IMG/VR virus record: IMGVR_UViG_3300021594_000673
Coordinates: 1 to 42,914 of that record
DNA from: a virus
Length of the DNA: 42,914 bases
Reading direction: 5' to 3' (one strand)
Part shown: positions 22,007-28,717 of the stretch, piece after piece
Numbering within the stretch: position 1 is the first letter of the stretch
Layout: each line of letters begins with the position of its first letter
Translations under genes and position numbers: made by a program
The notes under the pieces: generated by a model
Told to the model about the DNA's origin: nothing
Databases searched by the model: none
What the model saw: the letters and a program-made list of their open reading frames with translations, nothing else

Positions 22007-22041
22007 AACTATAAATACACGTTGATAATAAAAAATAATTG

Positions 22042-22117
22042 TAGCGTAGACTGGATTCGAACCAGCGTGCCTCTGCTCCCAAAGCAGATGAGATAAACCT
22101 GACTCCTCTACTACGCT
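22042..22117 (-). tRNA. tRNA-Pro(TGG)
   Basis: Acceptor AGCGTAG/CTACGCT, discriminator A, anticodon stem TCTGC/GCAGA with loop TTTGGGA. Last tRNA of the array that begins at 23803. Confidence 0.9.
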
Positions 22118-22126
22118 ATTTTTTTG

Positions 22127-22200
22127 TGGACCGTGACGGATTCGAACCGTCGACCCCCTGCGTGCAAGGCAGGTGCTCTAGCCAACTGAGCTAACAGCCC
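22127..22200 (-). tRNA. tRNA-Ala(TGC)
   Basis: Acceptor GGGCTGT/ACGGTCC with two G-T pairs, anticodon loop CTTGCAC on stem CCTGC/GCAGG, discriminator A. Confidence 0.9.
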
Positions 22201-22208
22201 TTATTTTT

Positions 22209-22282
22209 GCGGTCCCACCGGGAATCGAACCCGGCACTTTGCCGTGACAGGGCAATATTATAGCCGATTAACTACAGGACCG
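22209..22282 (-). tRNA. tRNA-Asp(GTC)
   Basis: Acceptor CGGTCCT/GGGACCG, anticodon stem TTGCC/GGCAA with loop CTGTCAC. Confidence 0.88.
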
Positions 22283-22296
22283 TAGTTAGTAAATCC

Positions 22297-22331
22297 GGGC
22301 CCAACAAGCCGTAATAAACACGGAAGGGCCC
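22297..22331. other. GGGCCC-closed hairpin between tRNAs
   Basis: GGGCCC at 22297 pairs with GGGCCC at 22326, enclosing CCGT/ACGG with a seven-base loop. On the plus strand a T run follows, so it could also act as a terminator for antisense transcription. Confidence 0.5.
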
Positions 22332-22350
22332 TTTTTAAGATTCACATTTG

Positions 22351-22423
22351 AGCGGGAGACCGGATTCGAACCGGCGACCCCAACCTTGGCAAGGTTGTGC
22401 TCTACCAACTGAGCTACTCCCGC
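22351..22423 (-). tRNA. tRNA-Gly(GCC)
   Basis: Acceptor GCGGGAG/CTCCCGC, anticodon stem CAACC/GGTTG with loop TTGCCAA, discriminator T. Confidence 0.92.
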
Positions 22424-22426
22424 AAC

Positions 22427-22552
22427 AAAAAGAAACTTTCCTTCTACGCTCACCGTAGGTTTAGATTTTACCGATGGTTTGTTCCCCATCACCTGTTATG
22501 TGTGCACCATAGAGCAGGGTCCATTACAGAGTCGTAAGGAAAGGTTCTTTTT
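22427..22552 (-). ncRNA. cloverleaf-like structured RNA between two tRNA-Gly genes
   Basis: The ends form a 17-bp stem with one mismatch (22427-22443 with 22536-22552). Inside lie at least three hairpins: CTACG/CGTAG, GATGG/CCATC, and CCTG/CAGG enclosing TATG/CATA with a seven-base loop. It fills the whole gap between tRNA-Gly(GCC) and tRNA-Gly(TCC), has no ORF of note, and does not carry the TTCRA T loop of a tRNA. Function unknown. Confidence 0.5.
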
Positions 22553-22553
22553 G

Positions 22554-22625
22554 AGCGAGTGGGGAGAATCGAACTCCCATCTCCAGCTTGGAAGGCTGGA
22601 GTAATAGCCTTTATACGACACTCGC
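22554..22625 (-). tRNA. tRNA-Gly(TCC)
   Basis: Acceptor GCGAGTG/CACTCGC, anticodon stem CCAGC/GCTGG with loop CTTCCAA, discriminator T. Confidence 0.92.
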
Positions 22626-22632
22626 ATTTTTG

Positions 22633-22830
22633 GGTGGAATCAGACTAGTTCTGTCCACCGAGACCTTGTCGTTAACTTTCGTCAGAGCGTACCAAGACAC
22701 AAGATTTTAAAAACCCCCACAGTTTCTATTGGCCAAATATTCTTATGGGGGGTTGTTAACGCTTATGCCTTGGGTTATTCACGTTAACTCTATCTACCAC
22801 TGTGATGTTCTTACGGTAATCATCGTGGTA
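22633..22830 (-). ncRNA. structured spacer RNA in the tRNA array
   Basis: This 200-base gap contains nested inverted repeats: GGTGGA/TCCACC with inner CAGA/TCTG near 22633-22660; CGTTAAC/GTTAACG enclosing AACCCCC/GGGGGTT with an inner TTGGCCAA palindrome; and TACCAC/GTGGTA near 22795-22830. No gene is visible. The dense pairing suggests an ordered RNA. Confidence 0.4.
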
Positions 22831-22835
22831 CTTGG

Positions 22836-22906
22836 TTGCGAACCTAGGACTCGAACCTAGAACTTTGGGTTATGAGCCCAATATGTTACCATTACACCAA
22901 CTCGCC
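22836..22906 (-). tRNA. tRNA-Met(CAT), initiator-like anticodon stem
   Basis: Anticodon stem TTGGG/CCCAA with loop CTCATAA gives the three G-C pairs typical of initiator tRNA. The acceptor is GGCGAGT with GTTCGCA, leaving positions 1 and 72 unpaired (G, A), another initiator-like trait. The D arm (GTG, TAATGGTAA, CAT) is small, so elongator identity is not excluded. Confidence 0.75.
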
Positions 22907-22916
22907 ATATATTTGG

Positions 22917-22995
22917 TTGTGATTAGAGGACTCGAACCTCTGACGGGGGGCGACCCAATTCGGTTCATGAGACCGACGTTACACCTGTATCACAA
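22917..22995 (-). tRNA. atypical tRNA with CAT anticodon
   Basis: The anticodon arm TCGGT/ACCGA with loop CTCATGA and the T arm AGAGG/CCTCT with TTCGAGT are good. The acceptor is about 6-7 bp (TGTGAT/ATCACA), the D arm is too short to pair normally, and the variable region is about 18 bases with a GGG/CCC mini-stem. It may be a decayed or specialised tRNA. Confidence 0.5.
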
Positions 22996-23000
22996 TTTGG

Positions 23001-23072
23001 TAGCGGGGACAGGATTCGAACCTGTGACCTCAAGGTTATGAGCCTTGCAAGCTACCTCTGCTCTACCCCGCT
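23001..23072 (-). tRNA. tRNA-Met(CAT)
   Basis: Acceptor AGCGGGG/CCCCGCT, anticodon stem CAAGG/CCTTG with loop CTCATAA, T loop TTCGAAT. The 5' part (GCGGGGTAGAGCAG) resembles bacterial initiator tRNA, but positions 1-72 pair and the stem has only two of three G-C pairs. Confidence 0.8.
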
Positions 23073-23082
23073 ATTTAAAAAA

Positions 23083-23389
23083 GTTGTAATTAGTTTAGAG
23101 GTTGGTAACCTATAGGTCGTACGTACCATCACTTGTACTTTGTGTCAGGGGTTCACCCCATACCTCCATTTGCTGATTAATAAGGATTTGAACCTTAATC
23201 CTGCATCCCAATTACGTTCTGCCGTGCCCCATACACCATAACCAATCGGAAGTTTCGAACCTTCCAGTCTCAGGGTAATTAATCCTGAGGTTTGTGGATA
23301 ATACAGGAATCGAACCTGCGTCTGAGAATCACCTCTGTGGTACCACTCCACTAATTAGCCTATTCAAGTTAATTACTCTTGAATGTTTG
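23083..23389 (-). ncRNA. structured spacer with degenerate tRNA-like elements
   Basis: No gene is seen. There are T-arm-like hairpins (TAAGG/CCTTA with loop TTCAAAT near 23181-23197; GGAAG/CTTCC near 23248-23263) and GGGG-TTCA-CCCC near 23149. The best element is 23295-23360: acceptor GGCTAAT/ATTATCC with one mismatch, D arm GTGG/CCAC, T arm GCAGG/CCTGT with TTCGATT, but an anticodon arm cut to GAG/CTC with a six-base loop. Confidence 0.4.
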
Positions 23390-23545
23390 TAGTCAGGACA
23401 GGGCTCGAACCTGTAGCGCCGGATTACTGCAGTTACGGCATTCGTCCTAGGTAAGCTCTTTCAACCATACACCATCATAGGACTAAGCGTCTTCCAAGTT
23501 ATAAGGGGACTATATGTCTGCTTATAAGCATTTCGCCACCTGACT
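23390..23545 (-). ncRNA. enlarged tRNA-like element (AGTCAGG family)
   Basis: The ends are tRNA-like: acceptor AGTCAGG/CCTGACT, discriminator A, T arm ACAGG/CCTGT with loop TTCGAGC. The interior is 80 bases too long: the D region has an extra GCTTA/TAAGC hairpin and the anticodon position has GTCCTA/TAGGAC closing a loop of about 28 bases. The same ends recur at 26100, 26300 and 26421. Confidence 0.5.
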
Positions 23546-23555
23546 ATTTATTTGG

Positions 23556-23629
23556 AGCCTCCGGACGGATTCGAACCGCCGACCCACTGATTACAAATCA
23601 GTAGCTCTGGCCAACTGAGCTACGGAGGC
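23556..23629 (-). tRNA. tRNA-Thr(TGT)
   Basis: Acceptor GCCTCCG/CGGAGGC, anticodon stem ACTGA/TCAGT with loop TTTGTAA, T loop TTCGAAT. Confidence 0.92.
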
Positions 23630-23633
23630 ATTT

Positions 23634-23729
23634 AAGTTACATCGTACAGGCATTCTACTTCCAGTTCCGAGAACTTGTATCTAATTTAACCCTACTCACC
23701 ACTGTACGGGTACCTGAGGATATAACTTT
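23634..23729 (-). ncRNA. structured spacer RNA
   Basis: A 10-bp end stem (AAGTTATATC with GATGTAACTT, one G-T) encloses CGTACAG/CTGTACG and AGTTC/GAACT hairpins. It fills the gap between tRNA-Thr and tRNA-Glu and holds no gene. Confidence 0.45.
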
Positions 23730-23731
23730 TG

Positions 23732-23803
23732 TACTCGGTAGGGGAGTCGAACCCCTCTTACCAGGATGAAAACCTGAGGTCCTAACCGATAGACGAACCG
23801 AGC
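23732..23803 (-). tRNA. tRNA-Glu(TTC)
   Basis: Acceptor GCTCGGT/ACCGAGT, anticodon stem TCAGG/CCTGG with loop TTTTCAT, T loop TTCGACT. First tRNA of the array that runs down to 22042. Confidence 0.9.
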
Positions 23804-23812
23804 AATTTTTTT

Positions 23813-23835
23813 ATTACCAACATGTCAAAGAACTT
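23813..23835 (-). promoter_or_regulatory. boxA-like antitermination element
   Basis: On the minus strand the core GTTCTTTGACATGTTGG lies 10 bases upstream of tRNA-Glu. It matches the boxA pattern (GCTCTTTAACA) of rRNA leaders at 9 of 11 positions and is identical over 23 bases to 28390-28412, which lies at the same place before the other large array. Confidence 0.6.
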
Positions 23836-23852
23836 TTTTGTTCTGTTGTCAT
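23814..23852 (-). CDS. possible 12-residue leader peptide
   Basis: An ORF MTTEQKSSLTCW starts about eight bases after the expected transcription start and ends inside the boxA-like element. It begins with Thr-Thr-Glu, and Glu and Thr are the first two tRNAs of this array. Being so short it could be chance. Confidence 0.25.
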   Translation of the reverse strand: MTTEQKSSLTCW

Positions 23853-23866
23853 CTTCAACAACAATA

Positions 23867-23898
23867 CAAAGTTAATACATTTTTTTGATATTGACAAA
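23867..23898 (-). promoter_or_regulatory. Bacteroidota-type promoter of the 22-23.8 kb tRNA array
   Basis: On the minus strand TTTG, exactly 20 bases, then TAACTTTG. It reads into the boxA-like element and tRNA-Glu. Confidence 0.7.
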
Positions 23899-23906
23899 CA
23901 TAACCA

Positions 23907-23940
23907 AAAAAAAACCCATCCTTTTGAGATGGGTTTTTGT
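23907..23940. terminator. bidirectional intrinsic terminator
   Basis: AAACCCATC pairs with GATGGGTTT with A and T runs on both flanks. It separates the tRNA array promoter from the aminotransferase unit. Confidence 0.8.
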
Positions 23941-23956
23941 AAGATTTTTTACAATA

Positions 23957-24025
23957 TTATCCCATCTCCACTTTGGAAGTATCACCCTCTGTTGCTGGTG
24001 TGCCGAATATGAATATGGTTTTCAT
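23957..24025 (-). CDS. possible 22-residue peptide
   Basis: MKTIFIFGTPATEGDTSKVE begins a 22-codon ORF that ends 17 bases before a terminator, downstream of the aminotransferase. Placement is gene-like, but length gives little support. Confidence 0.25.
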   Translation of the reverse strand: MKTIFIFGTPATEGDTSKVEMG

Positions 24026-24081
24026 CGAATGTATTATTATTTGATTTCTTATTAAATATAGTAATATTTTGAAAAAATCAA

Positions 24082-25350
24082 TCAAAATACCATAGAATTT
24101 ATAAAACTATTTGATTTTAATACGGATTTTTCAATTGTATCAAGAATAAAATCCAAATTTAATGATGAAATGTTACCAATTGAGATTCTAAACCATCCTT
24201 TATTTTCTTTGGAACCAAAATATTCAAAAGGAACAATTCCCAATCCACAAGTATTAATTAAGAACGAAATATATTCTTCTGTAGATGAAAATGAATGGAC
24301 ATAACCCAAATAAACTGAAATATAAATTCCACCATCAGGTTTTTGATAATCAACATCTAAACCCTTTGTCTTCAACTCTTGAAACTTTTCACATATTTGG
24401 GTTGATAAATATTCATACTCTTTTGTAACATAATCAATGTGTGACAAATAATCATCATGATTTTCTTTGATGTATCTGGCCAATGCTGTTTGTTCAGGTT
24501 TTGGTGCCCAAGCTCCGATATGAGACAAGACCTCAGTCATTTTCCCAATCACATCTTTTGGTCCAAACAACCAACCAACACGAACACCAGTTGCGTTTAA
24601 TGATTTTGAAATACCGTCAGCACAAATCAAATAATCTTTAATTTCAGGACACAGTGTTAATGGGTGTACAAATAAACCATCTTTGGTAATGTCAGAATAA
24701 ATTTGGTCAAAGAACAAATACAATGGTCTTGTATATGCTTGATTTTTTCTGATATTGTTTTCATCAACAATTACCTGACAAATACCTTTCAAAACTTCTG
24801 AATTAATTACACGACCTGTTGGATTTTGTGGTGAACAAATACAAATTAAAGATGTATTGTCCCTCAATTTATTTTTAACATCTTCAACGGTTGGAAAAAA
24901 TGAATTTTCAGGTGAACATTCAATTTCTTGTTTTTCAGCGTTATGTAAAAAACAATAATGGTTGTTATTCCAAGATGGTGTTGGATAAATAACACCCTCA
25001 CCCGGATTTACCATTGATTTATAAACTGTATAAATCAAAGGTCTAACACCACCACCAATTAAGATTTCTTCAGGTGAATAATCAACATTGAATTGATGTT
25101 TAATATGTTTTGAAACAGATTCCCTTAACTCAATTTCACCTTGTGAATTTGGATAATTTGTTAAACCATGTTCATAAGCTTCTTGAATGTAATCACTTAA
25201 TTTTGTTGGTATTGGCCATAATTTGGAACTAAAGTCACCAATGGTTAAGTTTGATACAGGTTTTGTTTTTGCAATTTCTTTGATTTGTTGTGAGATTTTG
25301 ATAATCTCAGAACCGACGATTTGGTTCCCTACTCTTGATAATTTTTCCAT
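24082..25350 (-). CDS. PLP-dependent aminotransferase, class I/II
   Basis: The 422-residue protein is full length for fold-type I aspartate-aminotransferase-like enzymes. Visible motifs are the substrate/cofactor loop NYPNSQGEIELRESVSKHIK-type start, CSPQNPTGRV (cofactor-ring Asn), FFDQIYSDI (Asp and Tyr of the PLP site) and ADGISKSLNATGVRVGW, where Lys of SKSL forms the Schiff base and R is the phosphate anchor. It would move an amino group between an amino acid and 2-oxoglutarate-like acceptor; the substrate is not readable. A TATTTATA box precedes it. It sits between two tRNA arrays, an unusual place for a metabolic gene. Confidence 0.8.
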   Translation of the reverse strand: MEKLSRVGNQIVGSEIIKISQQIKEIAKTKPVSNLTIGDFSSKLWPIPTKLSDYIQEAYEHGLTNYPNSQGEIELRESVSKHIKHQFNVDYSPEEILIGGGVRPLIYTVYKSMVNPGEGVIYPTPSWNNNHYCFLHNAEKQEIECSPENSFFPTVEDVKNKLRDNTSLICICSPQNPTGRVINSEVLKGICQVIVDENNIRKNQAYTRPLYLFFDQIYSDITKDGLFVHPLTLCPEIKDYLICADGISKSLNATGVRVGWLFGPKDVIGKMTEVLSHIGAWAPKPEQTALARYIKENHDDYLSHIDYVTKEYEYLSTQICEKFQELKTKGLDVDYQKPDGGIYISVYLGYVHSFSSTEEYISFLINTCGLGIVPFEYFGSKENKGWFRISIGNISSLNLDFILDTIEKSVLKSNSFINSMVF

Positions 25351-25359
25351 CTGTTAAAA

Positions 25360-25367
25360 TATAAATA
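25360..25367 (-). promoter_or_regulatory. TATTTATA motif, putative phage promoter
   Basis: On the minus strand TATTTATA ends nine bases upstream of the aminotransferase ATG. Confidence 0.35.
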
Positions 25368-25391
25368 ACTTGTTTTGAATAATCAACTTTG

Positions 25392-25465
25392 TAGCGAGGA
25401 ACGGAATCGAACCGTTAACCTTCTGCGTATGAAACAGACGCTCTAACCAATTGAGCTACCTCGCC
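25392..25465 (-). tRNA. tRNA-Met(CAT), elongator-like
   Basis: Acceptor GGCGAGG/CCTCGCT, D arm GCTC/GAGC, anticodon stem TCTGT/GCAGA with loop TTCATAC as in elongator tRNA-Met, T loop TTCGATT. Confidence 0.88.
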
Positions 25466-25475
25466 AAAACTATAA

Positions 25476-26084
25476 TTAGTTTATTACCCCTCCATCAGAT
25501 GTAAACAATTCAACGGTTGATGCTTTCCCCGAATTATCCAAATAATCCTCAATTTCTAACTCAACAGTTTTAAAGAAAATTTTATCAATATAATCATAAT
25601 CGCCTTCAGGTGTTACAATACTACCTGTCATAAATGTAAAATCTTCTACTGTTGGAACATCATCTGACTCAAAGTTCATGTAATACAACCCACCTTTATT
25701 CTCATCAACCATCAACAGAACGTTATTGTTACCATTTTCATTTGGAAATGCGTTATACTCTTCAAGACGATTATGTGTGTAATAATCATCAATCACCTCA
25801 TCCAAAGCCAACATATCTTGAATATCAAATTTTAACACCTCTTTCCCTTCTTCATCCTCAATAACAAAATTCATTCCTCCGTTATCAAACGCTTTTGATA
25901 AATGAAACAGTTCACCATCCCAAATGTCAATGTCTAAAAGTTGGTCCAATTCAAAACGGGCTTCCCACAAATTTTCATACCCATTTTCGCTCATAAACTC
26001 TTTAATTTTTGAAACTTGCTCATCGGTTAATGATTTTCCGATTGCTTCCATTTGCCATCCGTAACAATTTAGTGTATATTTCAT
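25476..26084 (-). CDS. hypothetical acidic protein, paralogue of 8318-8866
   Basis: The 202-residue protein begins MKYTLNCYGWQMEAIGKSLT and carries DIDIWDGELFHLS, then FVIEDEEGKEVLKFDI, the same order as in the product of 8318-8866. It is strongly acidic with no enzyme motif. It lies between tRNA-Met and tRNA-Ile(TAT) and is probably co-transcribed with them. Confidence 0.5.
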   Translation of the reverse strand: MKYTLNCYGWQMEAIGKSLTDEQVSKIKEFMSENGYENLWEARFELDQLLDIDIWDGELFHLSKAFDNGGMNFVIEDEEGKEVLKFDIQDMLALDEVIDDYYTHNRLEEYNAFPNENGNNNVLLMVDENKGGLYYMNFESDDVPTVEDFTFMTGSIVTPEGDYDYIDKIFFKTVELEIEDYLDNSGKASTVELFTSDGGVIN

Positions 26085-26099
26085 ATTTCCTGTTATTAG

Positions 26100-26172
26100 T
26101 AGTCAGGACGGGATTCGAACCCATAACCTTGATGATATAAGCATCCTGCGCTCACCATTGCGCCACCTGACT
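26100..26172 (-). tRNA. tRNA-Ile(TAT)
   Basis: Acceptor AGTCAGG/CCTGACT, D arm GCGC/GCGC, anticodon loop CTTATAT on a 4-bp stem GATG/CATC, T arm ATGGG/CCCGT with TTCGAAT. Reads AUA. It shares its acceptor with three aberrant tRNA-like elements. Confidence 0.8.
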
Positions 26173-26179
26173 AAATTTG

Positions 26180-26297
26180 CAAAGATATATGGTGTCGCTC
26201 CACAGCCTCTACAACCTAAGGATTTCGCTCAGAAGGGATATTATCCGCTCCGTACTTTTCCAAATTGCTAACCCTGTCCTTTTAGACAGATATCTTC
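26180..26297 (-). ncRNA. structured spacer between tRNA-like genes
   Basis: The ends carry AAGATAT/ATATCTT, and shorter inverted repeats lie inside. No gene is seen. It joins tRNA-Ile(TAT) to the tRNA-like element at 26300. Confidence 0.3.
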
Positions 26298-26299
26298 GG

Positions 26300-26377
26300 T
26301 AGTCAGGACAGGATTCGAACCTGTAACACCGGTTTGACCACTCACGTGGTCGCGTCTAACCATTCCGCCACCTGACT
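26300..26377 (-). ncRNA. tRNA-like element with a tetraloop in place of the anticodon
   Basis: Acceptor AGTCAGG/CCTGACT, a Leu-type D arm (GCGGAATGGTTAGACGC) and T arm ACAGG/CCTGT with TTCGAAT are intact. The anticodon arm is GACCAC-GTGA-GTGGTC, a 6-bp stem with a GNRA tetraloop, or at best a six-base loop on 5 bp. A small variable arm follows. No usable anticodon is seen. Confidence 0.55.
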
Positions 26378-26420
26378 ATTTCTTTGGTTTTTTAGTGAGA
26401 ACCGTTGATAAAACTCTCTG

Positions 26421-26525
26421 TAGTCAGGACAGGATTTGAACCTGCACAAAGTAGCTTATTCGCACCTTAAAGGTTTGGGCCATCTTACTTTACTTTCGTT
26501 GCGTCTACTATTCCGCCACCTGACT
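26421..26525 (-). ncRNA. enlarged tRNA-like element (AGTCAGG family)
   Basis: Acceptor AGTCAGG/CCTGACT, Leu-type D arm (GCG, GAATAGTAGA, CGC) and T arm with TTCAAAT are kept. The centre is about 60 bases: AAAGTA/TACTTT closes a long loop with TTTAAGG, which could be a Leu(TAA) anticodon loop but lacks a 5-bp stem. Confidence 0.5.
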
Positions 26526-26603
26526 ATGGTTGTCAGTCTCTCCTGACCGTCACCCCCACTCCGAAGGTATCAGCCTTCATTGTGAAACTGGGTTAGTTTT
26601 TCA
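26526..26603 (-). other. spacer with short hairpins
   Basis: GTCAG/CTGAC and GAAGG/CCTTC inverted repeats lie between two tRNA-like elements. No gene is seen. Confidence 0.3.
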
Positions 26604-26735
26604 TAATTAGAGCCGGTCTCGAACCGGATACCGTTCAGGACGGATTAGACAACCTTACGACGCAACGACCACCAATTACAGGTGACCGCCAATCTTGGGG
26701 ACTCGGGTACCATCCCTCATTACGCCCATCTAATT
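26604..26735 (-). ncRNA. enlarged tRNA-like element, AATTAGA acceptor
   Basis: Acceptor AATTAGA/TCTAATT with discriminator A, and a T arm CCGG/CCGG with TTCGAGA. The 132-base interior contains TCACC/GGTGG with a seven-base loop TGTAATT and other inverted repeats, so it is far from a standard cloverleaf. Confidence 0.45.
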
Positions 26736-26741
26736 ATTTTG

Positions 26742-26816
26742 TGGTGTGAGAGGGAATCGAACCACTCGGCACACGGGGTTTCAAACCGTTGCTCTACCTA
26801 CTGAGCTACCTACACC
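26742..26816 (-). tRNA. tRNA-Phe(GAA)-like
   Basis: Acceptor GGTGTAG/TCACACC with one mismatch, D arm GCTC/GAGC, anticodon arm ACGGT/CCCGT (one mismatch next to the loop) with loop TTGAAAC. The T stem is weak. A better tRNA-Phe lies at 28310, so this may be a diverged second copy. Confidence 0.6.
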
Positions 26817-26828
26817 ATTATTATAATA

Positions 26829-26860
26829 CAAAGTTAAAACATATTACCCAATTTTCCAAA
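26829..26860 (-). promoter_or_regulatory. Bacteroidota-type promoter of the 25.4-26.8 kb tRNA array
   Basis: On the minus strand TTTG, exactly 20 bases, then TAACTTTG, reading into the tRNA at 26816. The -33 box lies inside the end of the upstream gene. Confidence 0.7.
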
Positions 26861-27320
26861 CACCATTAATGTATTTTTTCATTTTTTTACCATCTTCAAT
26901 GTTACCAATAACCACACCATCTTTGATGGTAAATGCATGTCCTCTAACAACCACCACGTAAGTACCTTTTGGATATTTTTTGATAAAAGAACCCGTTGTA
27001 GTACTTCTAAGGGTTTTAACCCCTTTCACTACAACGTAGTACAACATGGTACTATATTCTTCAGAGATAATTTCAACAGATTTACCGTTAATTTTTTCAC
27101 CATTTTTAGACATTAGGTTCATAGTAACACCAAAACCAAAAGTTCCTTTACGATTTTGTCTTTTAAATTTTTGTTTAACAAACTGATGAGCCGAATCATA
27201 GTCCATTTCAGCTGCAGATGCGATTGCTCTTACAACACAATCACCTGACTCACTTTTAGCCAATGCGGATTCTTTAGCACCTTTGATAAATTCGGTTGAA
27301 GAAATATATCCTGTTGTCAT
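26844..27320 (-). CDS. papain-like cysteine peptidase-like protein
   Basis: I start at the ATG at 27320, just after a good promoter; the longer frame runs through three tRNAs. The 158-residue protein has ESGDCVVRAIASAAEMDYD (Cys at the start of a helix) and, 90 residues later, VVVVRGHAFTIKDGVVIGN (His at the start of a strand), the Cys-helix/His-strand layout of small papain-like phage proteins. Activity is not proven. Confidence 0.5.
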   Translation of the reverse strand: MTTGYISSTEFIKGAKESALAKSESGDCVVRAIASAAEMDYDSAHQFVKQKFKRQNRKGTFGFGVTMNLMSKNGEKINGKSVEIISEEYSTMLYYVVVKGVKTLRSTTTGSFIKKYPKGTYVVVVRGHAFTIKDGVVIGNIEDGKKMKKYINGVWKIG

Positions 27321-27324
27321 GATA

Positions 27325-27356
27325 CAAATATACAACAGATATTTGACTTTACCAAA
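27325..27356 (-). promoter_or_regulatory. Bacteroidota-type promoter
   Basis: On the minus strand TTTG, exactly 20 bases, then TATATTTG, five bases before the ATG at 27320. It lies next to the last tRNA of the 12-tRNA array. Confidence 0.7.
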
Positions 27357-27364
27357 AAAAGTTG

Positions 27365-27436
27365 CTCCCCGACCTGGATTCGAACCAGGGACCGCTCGGT
27401 TAACAGCCGAGTGCTCTACCGCTGAGCTACCGAGGA
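27365..27436 (-). tRNA. tRNA-Asn(GTT)
   Basis: Acceptor TCCTCGG/TCGGGGA, anticodon stem CTCGG/CCGAG with loop CTGTTAA, T loop TTCGAAT. Last tRNA of the 12-tRNA array. Confidence 0.95.
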
Positions 27437-27441
27437 ATATG

Positions 27442-27523
27442 TACCAAAGGTGGGAATCGAACCCACATGTCCCGAGGACATTAGTTTCTAAGACTAACGC
27501 GGCTACCTTTACGCCACTTTGGT
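27442..27523 (-). tRNA. tRNA-Leu(TAG)
   Basis: Acceptor ACCAAAG/CTTTGGT, anticodon stem TTAGT/ACTAA with loop CTTAGAA, long variable arm. Only clear Leu tRNA in the window. Confidence 0.93.
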
Positions 27524-27529
27524 ATTTTG

Positions 27530-27600
27530 CAGGCCAGGAGGGATTCGAACCCCCAACAACAGTTTTGGAGACTGTCATGATACCATTTCACTACTGACCT
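27530..27600 (-). tRNA. tRNA-Trp(CCA)
   Basis: Acceptor AGGTCAG/CTGGCCT, discriminator G, anticodon stem ACAGT/ACTGT with loop CTCCAAA. Its anticodon arm is close to that of the amber tRNA at 28646. Confidence 0.93.
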
Positions 27601-27608
27601 GTGTGTTG

Positions 27609-27682
27609 TGATTCCTGAGGGACTCGAACCCCCAACCTTTTCGTCCGTAGCGAAACGCTCTAATCCATTGAGCTAAGGAACC
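27609..27682 (-). tRNA. tRNA-Arg(ACG)
   Basis: Acceptor GGTTCCT/AGGAATC, anticodon stem TTTCG/CGAAA with loop CTACGGA. A34 would need TadA deamination to read CGU/CGC/CGA. Confidence 0.93.
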
Positions 27683-27688
27683 ATTTGG

Positions 27689-27763
27689 GGTGACTGATGG
27701 GGCTTGAACCCACGACCTTTGGTACCACAAACCAACGCTCTAAACCAACTGAGCTACAGTCAC
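27689..27763 (-). tRNA. tRNA-His(GTG)
   Basis: Acceptor GTGACTG/CAGTCAC with discriminator C, anticodon stem TTGGT/ACCAA with loop TTGTGGT. The base at -1 in the DNA is T, not the G usual for His. Confidence 0.92.
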
Positions 27764-27764
27764 A

Positions 27765-27839
27765 GAGTCCATAGTTGGAATCGAACCAACGAATAACAGT
27801 TTTGCAGACTGTCCCTTTTACCATTCAGGCATATGGACT
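27765..27839 (-). tRNA. tRNA-Cys(GCA)
   Basis: Acceptor AGTCCAT/ATGGACT, anticodon stem ACAGT/ACTGT with loop CTGCAAA, T loop TTCGATT. The D stem is weak and the discriminator is C. Confidence 0.88.
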
Positions 27840-27900
27840 TATATTCTATAAGTCTCCAAAACTAGTAAAAAAAGCGAGTTTTGGAGGATTATAAGTTTTG

Positions 27901-27982
27901 TGCCAGCAGTAGGACTCGAACCTACGAACTCAAATGAGGCTTGATTTACAGTCAAGTGCAATTGCCGCTATGCGATACTGGC
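27901..27982 (-). tRNA. tRNA-Tyr(GTA)
   Basis: Acceptor GCCAGTA/TGCTGGC, anticodon stem CTTGA/TCAAG with loop CTGTAAA, long variable arm as in bacterial Tyr. A short TCCAAAA hairpin lies in the gap before tRNA-Cys. Confidence 0.93.
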
Positions 27983-27988
27983 ATTTTG

Positions 27989-28061
27989 TCTTTCCTGTTG
28001 GATTTGAACCAACGACCCTCTGCATGTAAGGCAGATGCTCTTCCAACTGAGCTAAGGAAAG
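27989..28061 (-). tRNA. tRNA-Val(TAC)
   Basis: Acceptor CTTTCCT/AGGAAAG, anticodon stem TCTGC/GCAGA with loop CTTACAT. Confidence 0.95.
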
Positions 28062-28067
28062 ATGTTG

Positions 28068-28142
28068 TGACCCCGTCGGGACTCGAACCCGAAACCCCCT
28101 CATTAAAAGTGAGGTGCTCTAAACCAATTGAGCTACGAAGTC
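28068..28142 (-). tRNA. tRNA-Lys(TTT)
   Basis: Acceptor GACTTCG/CGGGGTC, anticodon stem CCTCA/TGAGG with loop CTTTTAA. Confidence 0.95.
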
Positions 28143-28148
28143 ATATTG

Positions 28149-28219
28149 TTACCCCTGAAGGACTCGAACCTCCATTCAGTGGACCAAAACCACTTGTCCT
28201 GCCATTAGACGAAAGGGTA
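28149..28219 (-). tRNA. tRNA-Gln(TTG)
   Basis: Acceptor TACCCTT/AGGGGTA, anticodon stem AGTGG/CCACT with loop TTTTGGT. Confidence 0.93.
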
Positions 28220-28227
28220 ATTTATGG

Positions 28228-28301
28228 TTGGTGATACAGGACTTGAACCTGTGACCCCTACGGTATCAGCGTAGTGCTCTAACCAACTGAGCTAATCACC
28301 A
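28228..28301 (-). tRNA. tRNA-Ile(GAT)
   Basis: Acceptor TGGTGAT/ATCACCA, anticodon stem CTACG/CGTAG with loop CTGATAC. Confidence 0.95.
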
Positions 28302-28309
28302 ATGTATTG

Positions 28310-28382
28310 TGGGACGGGGTGGACTCGAACCACCATGGCTGGATTTTCAGTCCAGTGCATTGACCATCTTTGCTACCGTCCC
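28310..28382 (-). tRNA. tRNA-Phe(GAA)
   Basis: Acceptor GGGACGG/CCGTCCC, anticodon stem CTGGA/TCCAG with loop CTGAAAA. First tRNA of the 12-tRNA array. Confidence 0.95.
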
Positions 28383-28389
28383 ATTTTTG

Positions 28390-28412
28390 ATTACCAACAT
28401 GTCAAAGAACTT
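28390..28412 (-). promoter_or_regulatory. boxA-like antitermination element
   Basis: Identical over 23 bases to 23813-23835; on the minus strand the core is GTTCTTTGACATGTTGG, seven bases before tRNA-Phe and just after the leader terminator. rRNA boxA recruits NusB/S10 to let polymerase pass terminators in untranslated RNA. Confidence 0.6.
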
Positions 28413-28418
28413 AAAAAC

Positions 28419-28448
28419 AAAAAACCCGAACCTTGTGAGTTCGGGTAT
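28419..28448 (-). terminator. leader terminator (attenuator) of the 12-tRNA array
   Basis: On the minus strand ACCCGAAC pairs with GTTCGGGT and a T run follows. The 5' arm ACCCGAAC can instead pair with AGTTCGGGT (28481-28489) in the end of the leader ORF, which would block the terminator. This is the arrangement of a translational attenuator. Confidence 0.7.
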
Positions 28449-28468
28449 CCTTTTTAGGCTACTACGTG

Positions 28469-28564
28469 TTAACTTAAAACACCCGAACTTGCAAATAAGC
28501 GAATATACCAATTCTGACAGAATTGAATGACATGTTTCACGATTTGTTTATTTACGAGTTTCAT
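28469..28564 (-). CDS. leader peptide of the 12-tRNA array, 31 aa
   Basis: The ORF starts 24 bases after a good -7 box and stops about 20 bases before the terminator hairpin. Residues 2-24 use only K, L, V, N, Q, I, H, F, C, W, Y and R, each at least once; these are exactly the 12 amino acids of the 12 tRNAs at 27365-28382. D, E, G, A, S, T and P are absent from that stretch. After it come A, S, S, G, V, L, S, where the codons for S-S-G form the antiterminator arm. I infer that slow decoding at any of these codons changes leader folding and lets polymerase reach the tRNAs. Confidence 0.7.
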   Translation of the reverse strand: MKLVNKQIVKHVIQFCQNWYIRLFASSGVLS

Positions 28565-28587
28565 TGTGTTTGTTATTAAATATAGTA

Positions 28588-28618
28588 CAAAGATACAAAA
28601 GTTTATTGATATGTCAAA
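28588..28618 (-). promoter_or_regulatory. Bacteroidota-type promoter of the 12-tRNA array
   Basis: On the minus strand TTTG, 19 bases, then TATCTTTG. It reads into the leader peptide at 28564. Confidence 0.75.
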
Positions 28619-28645
28619 TATTTTTTATTTTTTTTTTATTTTTTG

Positions 28646-28717
28646 TGGCCCTGACGGGGTTCGAACCCGTGACTATCAGTTTTAGAGACTGCAATGTTAC
28701 CGCTACACCACAGAGCC
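28646..28717 (-). tRNA. tRNA-Sup(CTA), amber suppressor
   Basis: Acceptor GGCTCTG/CAGGGCC, discriminator A, D arm GTG, TAGCGGTAA, CAT, anticodon stem CAGT/ACTG (outermost pair G-A open) with loop CTCTAAA, T arm ACGGG/CCCGT with TTCGAAC. C34-T35-A36 reads UAG. The arm is one base from that of tRNA-Trp(CCA) in this window; the D arm resembles Gln-type tRNAs, so the inserted amino acid is open. Confidence 0.88.

Follow-up and report, generated by a model that had tools for sequence, protein, structure and literature searches.

Leader ORFs that list the amino acids of the phage tRNA arrays behind them: candidate attenuators for whole codon sets

Two leaders and two tRNA arrays in one virus record

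The sequence analyzed here, referred to below as the window, is the complete virus record IMGVR_UViG_3300021594_000673 (42,914 bases). It carries two tRNA arrays, each preceded by a short leader ORF, a terminator and a boxA-like element (Table 1). The promoter, ORF, terminator, ORF-embedded arm, boxA-like element and 12 tRNA genes that a preliminary description had assigned to the first of these loci were all recovered in the same places by inspection of the sequence and with ARAGORN; the motif at 28588-28620 is promoter-like, resembling the Bacteroidota type. The arms and loop of the leader 1 terminator span 28446-28424, and its T run reaches 28419. The arm within ORF 1, AGTTCGGGT, is approximately a copy of the 3' arm of the terminator, GGTTCGGGT, so that either could pair with the middle arm, ACCCGAACT, and the arrangement, as read from the sequence, is the classic layout of an attenuator.

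Table 1. Features of the two leader-array loci in the window.
Feature	Position	Strand	Basis
Promoter-like motif of leader 1 (TTTG ... TATCTTTG)	28588..28620	-	sequence; Bacteroidota-type consensus
Leader ORF 1, 31 codons, MKLVNKQIVKHVIQFCQNWYIRLFASSGVLS	28469..28564	-	sequence, set count
Switch arm 1 of leader 1, AGTTCGGGT, near ORF end; predicted pairing partner, arm 2 (antiterminator)	28481..28489	-	
Terminator of leader 1: arm 2 ACCCGAACT, loop, arm 3 GGTTCGGGT, T run	28419..28446	-	
boxA-like element GTTCTTTGACATGTTGGTA preceding array 1	28392..28410	-	sequence
tRNA array 1: Phe Ile Gln Lys Val Tyr Cys His Arg Trp Leu Asn	27364..28382	-	ARAGORN
Leader ORF 2, MKTIFIFGTPATEGDTSKVEMG	23957..24025	-	sequence, finder
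Switch arm 1 of leader 2, GAGATGGG	23961..23968	-	
Terminator of leader 2, ACCCATCTC ... GGATGGGT and T run	23906..23934	-	
boxA-like element preceding array 2	23815..23833	-	
tRNA array 2: Glu Thr Met Met Gly Gly Asp Ala Pro	22041..23803	-	ARAGORN

Residues 2-24 of leader 1 consist of exactly F, I, Q, K, V, Y, C, H, R, W, L and N, that is, the set of amino acids served by the 12-tRNA array 1 and no other, as the preliminary description had claimed and a count confirmed. Its contention that such a composition is very unlikely by chance also held: none of 102,296 23-residue windows taken from long ORFs in the same loci use the set, and the only short ATG ORFs that do (3 of 6,622) are leader 1 and two homologues.

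The second leader in the window, absent from the preliminary description, encodes a peptide unrelated to that of leader 1 and lists amino acids complementary to it. It contains T, P, A, E, G and D, with a Met codon lying within its switch arm, and in addition K, I, F, S and V, which are not in the array 2 set. Its arms are GAGATGGG, CCCATCTC and GGATGGGT, followed by a run of T. A similar split of the amino acids was observed in phages with unrelated leaders (window 22041-28382; L049, L137, L169), one array being mainly for Phe, Ile, Gln, Lys, Tyr, Cys, His and Trp and the other for Glu, Asp, Gly, Ala and Thr.

The surroundings of the two arrays contain further tRNA signals. Four more tRNAs (Phe, undetermined, Ile, Met) were called by ARAGORN at 26816-25391, between the Asn tRNA of array 1 and array 2, and a tRNA with anticodon CTA (amber suppressor type, labelled Pyl) was called at 28645-28717, just upstream of the leader 1 promoter; two tRNAs of the same CTA kind are present in the phage LR756501. 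Several tRNA-like stretches with unusual inserts, common 'tagtcaggtggcg' starts and similar 'tcctgacta' ends were also seen at 23400-26620, only some of which are called by ARAGORN, and the array 2 region likewise holds tRNA-like stretches that it does not call.

Leader 1 belongs to a family of seven members, in which we saw no case of the same array behind a leader with an unrelated residue set, an outcome that the preliminary description had named as a refutation. In the two members whose array includes an additional tRNA-Ser(UGA), the leader list also contains a TCG codon. Among the five remaining members, three have no Ser codon, and two (L130, L131) have a Ser codon at residues 24-25 and no tRNA-Ser. 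The L129 leader retains Trp with no tRNA-Trp call, L131 retains Leu and Asn without those tRNAs nearby, and in L012 the list is complete although the tRNAs behind it are just those for Phe, Ile and Gln and, further on, Glu. These mismatches indicate that the leader list does not follow every change in tRNA content.

Leaders of the same design in other genomes

The arm pattern of leader 1 returned 13 matches in IMG/VR, some of them near-identical, and all 13 had a leader ORF with tRNAs behind it. A scan for the boxA-like motif yielded at least 119 stretches, and boxA was thereby a selection criterion for the loci that it supplied. Similarity at the DNA level to the array region, used to pick other phages, was confined to tRNA genes and included no leader among the matches listed, and a tblastn search of the phage collection with the 31-residue leader 1 peptide gave no match. 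To qualify as a hit, a site had to present a terminator, a second copy of its 3' arm further upstream and a short ORF that starts with ATG and ends at this copy; three-way pairing of the arms is hence a requirement of the finder, whereas composition was ignored. On 175 loci the finder returned 200 hits with 85 distinct peptides; for 68 of these a tRNA lies no more than 500 bases away. All but one of these 68 had at least three tRNAs, and that one was dropped. The remaining 67 leaders were grouped into 33 families at a distance cut-off of 0.5, and into 23 broader families at 0.65, with arm sequences varying between families. Each family was represented by a single member, and both a truncated copy (L091) and a chance-like leader (L132, MALEWGQ...) were kept. 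Met and undetermined tRNAs were excluded from the set tests because CAT anticodons are ambiguous. Leaders of this design are widespread, the window being one case of them, and are carried by phages of Bacteroidota.

The 17 peptides without a tRNA within 500 bases were set aside; six of them resemble members of leader families, with tRNAs further away or none called. Clustering at 35% identity, which chained unrelated leaders, was replaced by the distance cut-offs above (under it, too, none of the 20,000 permutations described below reached the observed value).

We identified arm 1 (at least 7 bases) at 59 of 97 array-leading terminators, in all 59 instances within the end of an ATG ORF, compared with 4 of 97 when the upstream DNA was shuffled. 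At terminators away from tRNAs, arm 1 was found in 15 of 379, against 4 after shuffling.

Several of the leaders lie in named phages. Cellulophaga phage phi17:2 carries three: MKIQRLHLQELEQPIISGGTGV, ahead of Pro Glu Gln His Leu Leu Arg; KIKVQLTKTGITVIDKTKGARA..., ahead of Ala Lys Ile Gly Met Asp Thr Val Arg Met, which lies inside the annotated hypothetical gene Phi17218_077 and has an unsure start codon; and MKTNYCTYNNSNWSFSYDTG..., ahead of Tyr Ser Asn Trp Phe, which is also present in phage phi4:1. An undetermined phi17:2 tRNA was not resolved by other ARAGORN settings; its loop, TTGCAAA, suggests that it may be tRNA-Cys, and Cys is what the leader would predict. Two leaders were found in Tenacibaculum phage Gundel_1, one in Prevotella megaphage Lak-B6 and five, with five checklists, in the 735-kb phage LR756501. 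The tRNAs of LR756501 are grouped by amino acid, each group with its own leader: Leu, Met/Gln and Arg/Thr/Val/Ala/Gly (L176, L184, L186). The Stenotrophomonas phages Yut2 and Moby have a common leader, MNNMYSQNQFCKWSVEDAGHRSVFESC, ahead of 16 tRNAs, and the Moby terminator is annotated as such in its record; here sets of 16 and 15 of the 20 amino acids overlap in 14 (p ~0.03, calculated by hand), so that this case is only suggestive.

In the stretches around their tRNAs, no leader was found in Vibrio phage Hades, Serratia phage BF, Escherichia phage phiWec187, Aeromonas phage AhMtk13a, cyanophage S-RIM44, Mycobacterium phage NoodleTree, Streptomyces phage Navo, Pseudomonas phage phiPMW, Enterococcus phage ZJGS3, Acinetobacter phage Aci01-1 or cr116_1, and Arthrobacter phage Racecar had one chance-like leader. 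In all, 12 of 19 sampled phage records with tRNAs presented no leader or only a chance-like one in the tRNA-flanking stretches, which are not whole genomes.

The design may also be used by bacteria. A genome scan with the leader 1 arm pattern returned two matches, one of which is a Microscilla leader, MKYLNTHIVEFRASLGMGSQDWDCARSGVFKSKYRY, that precedes a TROVE-domain gene, with no tRNAs. TROVE proteins bind RNA in surveillance and repair, and the domain was found in 45 of 193 genomes of Microscilla's order. A leader with its switch was present in 6 of the 29 TROVE upstream regions examined, two of the six having leaders identical in every letter, and 40 dinucleotide shuffles of each region yielded none at the printed precision. 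TROVE leaders were seen to contain 15 to 19 amino-acid kinds and a switch of the same kind (L199 5270-5440, L221; loci L210, L211, L220 and L229).

Agreement between leader codons and array tRNAs

The preliminary description had proposed comparing leader composition with array content in relatives, and the comparison revealed agreement across the 33 families, among sister leaders and in codon boxes. The mean Matthews correlation coefficient (MCC) between the leader set, taken from the codons before arm 1, and the array set was 0.487 over the 33 families, whereas permuted pairs had a mean MCC of 0.006 (sd 0.052, maximum 0.207) and none of 20,000 permutations reached the observed value. A leader's own array ranked first of the 33 in 17 families, with one expected, and the 23 broader families gave a similar picture (mean MCC 0.448, 0 of 20,000). 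Where the array covers no more than 14 amino-acid kinds (27 families), the leaders contain 189 of the 196 amino acids served by the arrays. The match is confined to the codons before arm 1: the peptide after it showed no agreement with the array (MCC -0.015, reached by 14,031 of 20,000 permutations).

The correspondence is incomplete in the other direction, with 141 of 420 leader amino-acid kinds missing from the detected array, in part because contigs end inside arrays and because of start context. MCC fell below 0.2 in three of the 33 families (L082, L097, L160), and two could not be scored. One leader, MQLHGCTYWILSNVEKNFPQADSITHIPGRS, has 18 amino-acid kinds before the arm and Arg after it (L097; also L024, L059), and in L097 it stands ahead of 21 tRNAs.

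Genomes with more than one leader allow each leader to be scored against sister arrays. In 17 genomes with two to five leaders each, the own array fitted better than the sister arrays for all 38 leaders (mean 0.61 versus -0.38); since several of these genomes are closely related, 38 is not the number of independent events. The entries for three named phages were made by hand, with leader parts and arrays cut by eye, and phi17:2 leaders A and B, which were found by eye and fall below the finder thresholds, were used in this test only. For the LR756501 Met/Gln array, three tRNA-Glu genes further on were left out.

The agreement extends to codon boxes. We considered each instance of Arg, Leu, Ser or Ile in a leader whose array tRNAs cover only one box for that amino acid. 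The leader has a codon in the box read by the array in 44 of 45 such cases, against a permuted mean of 34.2, with none of 20,000 permutations reaching the observed count. Where the only tRNA-Arg reads AGR, 4 of 4 leader Arg codons are AGR, and where it reads CGN, 11 of 13 are CGN. The LR756501 leader ahead of five tRNA-Leu genes contains all six Leu codons, once each, before the arm. A mismatch is seen in L184, where the array has tRNA-Ser(CGA) and the leader no TCG codon. Homologous leader pairs differ by 195 replacement and 70 silent codon changes in all. An excess of replacements would be expected if only the set matters; it is no proof of coding, and there is no clear coding signal.

Inferred regulation, rival readings and known systems

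Together, these results lead us to propose that the leaders are ribosome-mediated attenuators that sense tRNA supply for whole codon sets, a reading to which we assign a probability of about 0.85; the regulation is inferred, in the absence of expression, ribosome or mutation data. The leader codons would serve as a checklist, naming those codons that the tRNAs of the following array read. Assuming that the ORF is translated, which we infer, prompt reading of all its codons would bring the ribosome to the ORF end, where it covers arm 1, so that arm 2 pairs with arm 3 as the terminator and transcription stops short of the array. Slow reading of any listed codon, its tRNA being scarce, uncharged or cleaved, would leave arm 1 free, and it would pair with arm 2 while arm 3 is still to be made; termination would then fail and the whole array would be transcribed, perhaps aided by the boxA-like element where present, a role that is likewise inferred. 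Because the array's product supplies the signal, the loop would be closed, with the tRNAs ending their own synthesis once sufficient. The multiplexed attenuator envisaged in the preliminary description is supported by set and codon matching, while the path from a slow ribosome through the antiterminator to tRNA transcription is still an inference.

Switch energetics are the weakest computed link of this model. In 21 of 33 families the arm 1-arm 2 region has a predicted stability equal to or greater than that of the terminator. The values are -17.6 versus -13.0 kcal/mol for leader 1 and -11.8 versus -12.6 kcal/mol for leader 2. At equilibrium the terminator dominates in most families, with a median probability of 0.97 when arm 1 is free and 0.98 when it is masked, and we therefore rejected equilibrium folding as proof of a switch. 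Of the two structures anticipated for leader 1, the alternative pairing lies in the region predicted to be the more stable, but equilibrium folding alone does not show the switch. The model consequently needs arms 1 and 2 to fold first, during transcription, as in known attenuators.

The trigger is inferred as well. Loss of host tRNAs during infection, through nucleases or shut-off, would switch on the array containing the lost tRNA. Host tRNA damage is one possible trigger and would fit the proposal that phage tRNAs counter host defences that cut tRNAs (PMC10264068), and plain homeostasis would look the same. It remains quite possible, though we lean slightly against it, that the leader merely tunes phage tRNA output to demand, without any involvement of host tRNA cleavage; such homeostasis falls within the attenuator reading and does not exclude it. 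Feedback by the tRNAs of the array alone would be enough to account for the anatomy, with wiring as in amino-acid operons, and the consideration on the other side, namely the proposal that tRNAs of phages withstand anticodon nucleases of the host (PMC10264068), does not rule it out.

If the leader instead reported only ribosome movement in general, as under host shut-off, its residues would address no particular tRNAs. The 18 amino-acid kinds before the arm in L097, the near-complete set that stands before a TROVE gene rather than tRNAs and the intact list of L012 with most of its array missing are all compatible with such a gauge, which nevertheless predicts no link to the leader's own array and is disfavoured, to the point of being very improbable, by the 38 of 38 leaders that fit their own array better than those of their sisters and by the matching codon boxes. 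We give still less credence to a regulatory small protein that acts by itself, with the array match incidental. The short ORFs are conserved in place, and the one in phi17:2 lies inside the annotated gene Phi17218_077, yet the peptides are unrelated across families while their residue set follows the array, the match ends at arm 1 and replacement changes within families are many. Ordinary terminators with spurious ORFs ahead of tRNAs may account for two chance-like hits (L132, among the 33, and L179), but as an explanation for the group as a whole chance is refuted by the permutations, tail control, swap test and shuffles, all obtained with a composition-blind finder.

The attenuator reading can be generalized, at what we judge to be even odds, to a class of codon-set sensors: modular attenuators whose leader holds a checklist of codons that is edited whenever tRNA genes are gained or lost. 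Bacteroidota phages, and perhaps others outside this group, would distribute the amino acids over one to five arrays that limit themselves, and certain host bacteria would place near-complete checklists before TROVE (Ro60-like) RNA-surveillance genes, so that any tRNA loss starts repair. The attenuators proposed for the phages would raise the number of amino acids known to be sensed in attenuation from between one and three to up to 18 kinds. They would also allow array content to be predicted from a rule in the sequence, and could serve as a model for building translation sensors with many inputs.

The reason why phages carry tRNAs is described as unclear for more than fifty years, and phage tRNAs are proposed as a counter-defence to host anticodon nucleases (PMC10264068). 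That system involves the same kind of gene and has tRNA loss in infection as the proposed problem; it concerns tRNA insensitivity, and no regulatory leader appears in the part available (PMC10264068). The wiring of the phage leaders seems to state what is watched, namely the supply of the carried tRNAs, down to the codon box, so that a cultured phage, phi17:2 on Cellulophaga baltica, offers a direct test of the question. Like the preliminary description, which knew of no attenuator listing a whole tRNA array, we found no description of such phage tRNA-array leaders, nor of multivalent attenuation, among the matches listed from the full-text literature, which does not cover preprints and most subscription papers.

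T-box riboswitches read tRNA charging and control termination, binding one uncharged tRNA directly and without translation. The phage leaders, as proposed here, would resemble them in reading charging and controlling termination, and differ in that T-boxes need no translation. A T-box model was not among the seven matches up to E 10 in 28385-28640, the only leader region scanned. No Rfam leader family reached its gathering threshold there, the best of them being Thr_leader (19.8 versus 55 bits), and the best of all families was STnc150 (21 versus 60 bits). Leaders of amino-acid operons sense one to three amino acids, as with Thr and Ile in thr or Leu, Val and Ile in ilvGMEDA. The attenuators of these operons (trp, his, leu, thr, ilvGMEDA, pheA) share with the phage leaders a short leader ORF with codons matched to the role of the operon, and a terminator with an antiterminator that uses one of its arms. 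In the operons these two structures compete and ribosome position is coupled to read-through (mechanism in PMC1183508), which for the phage leaders is inferred. The amino-acid operons make enzymes, whereas the phage leaders serve tRNAs, with up to 18 amino-acid kinds before the arm (L097). The mechanism of attenuation is known, and with one to three amino acids it is textbook material (PMC1183508); the scale and the target seem new within the literature covered.
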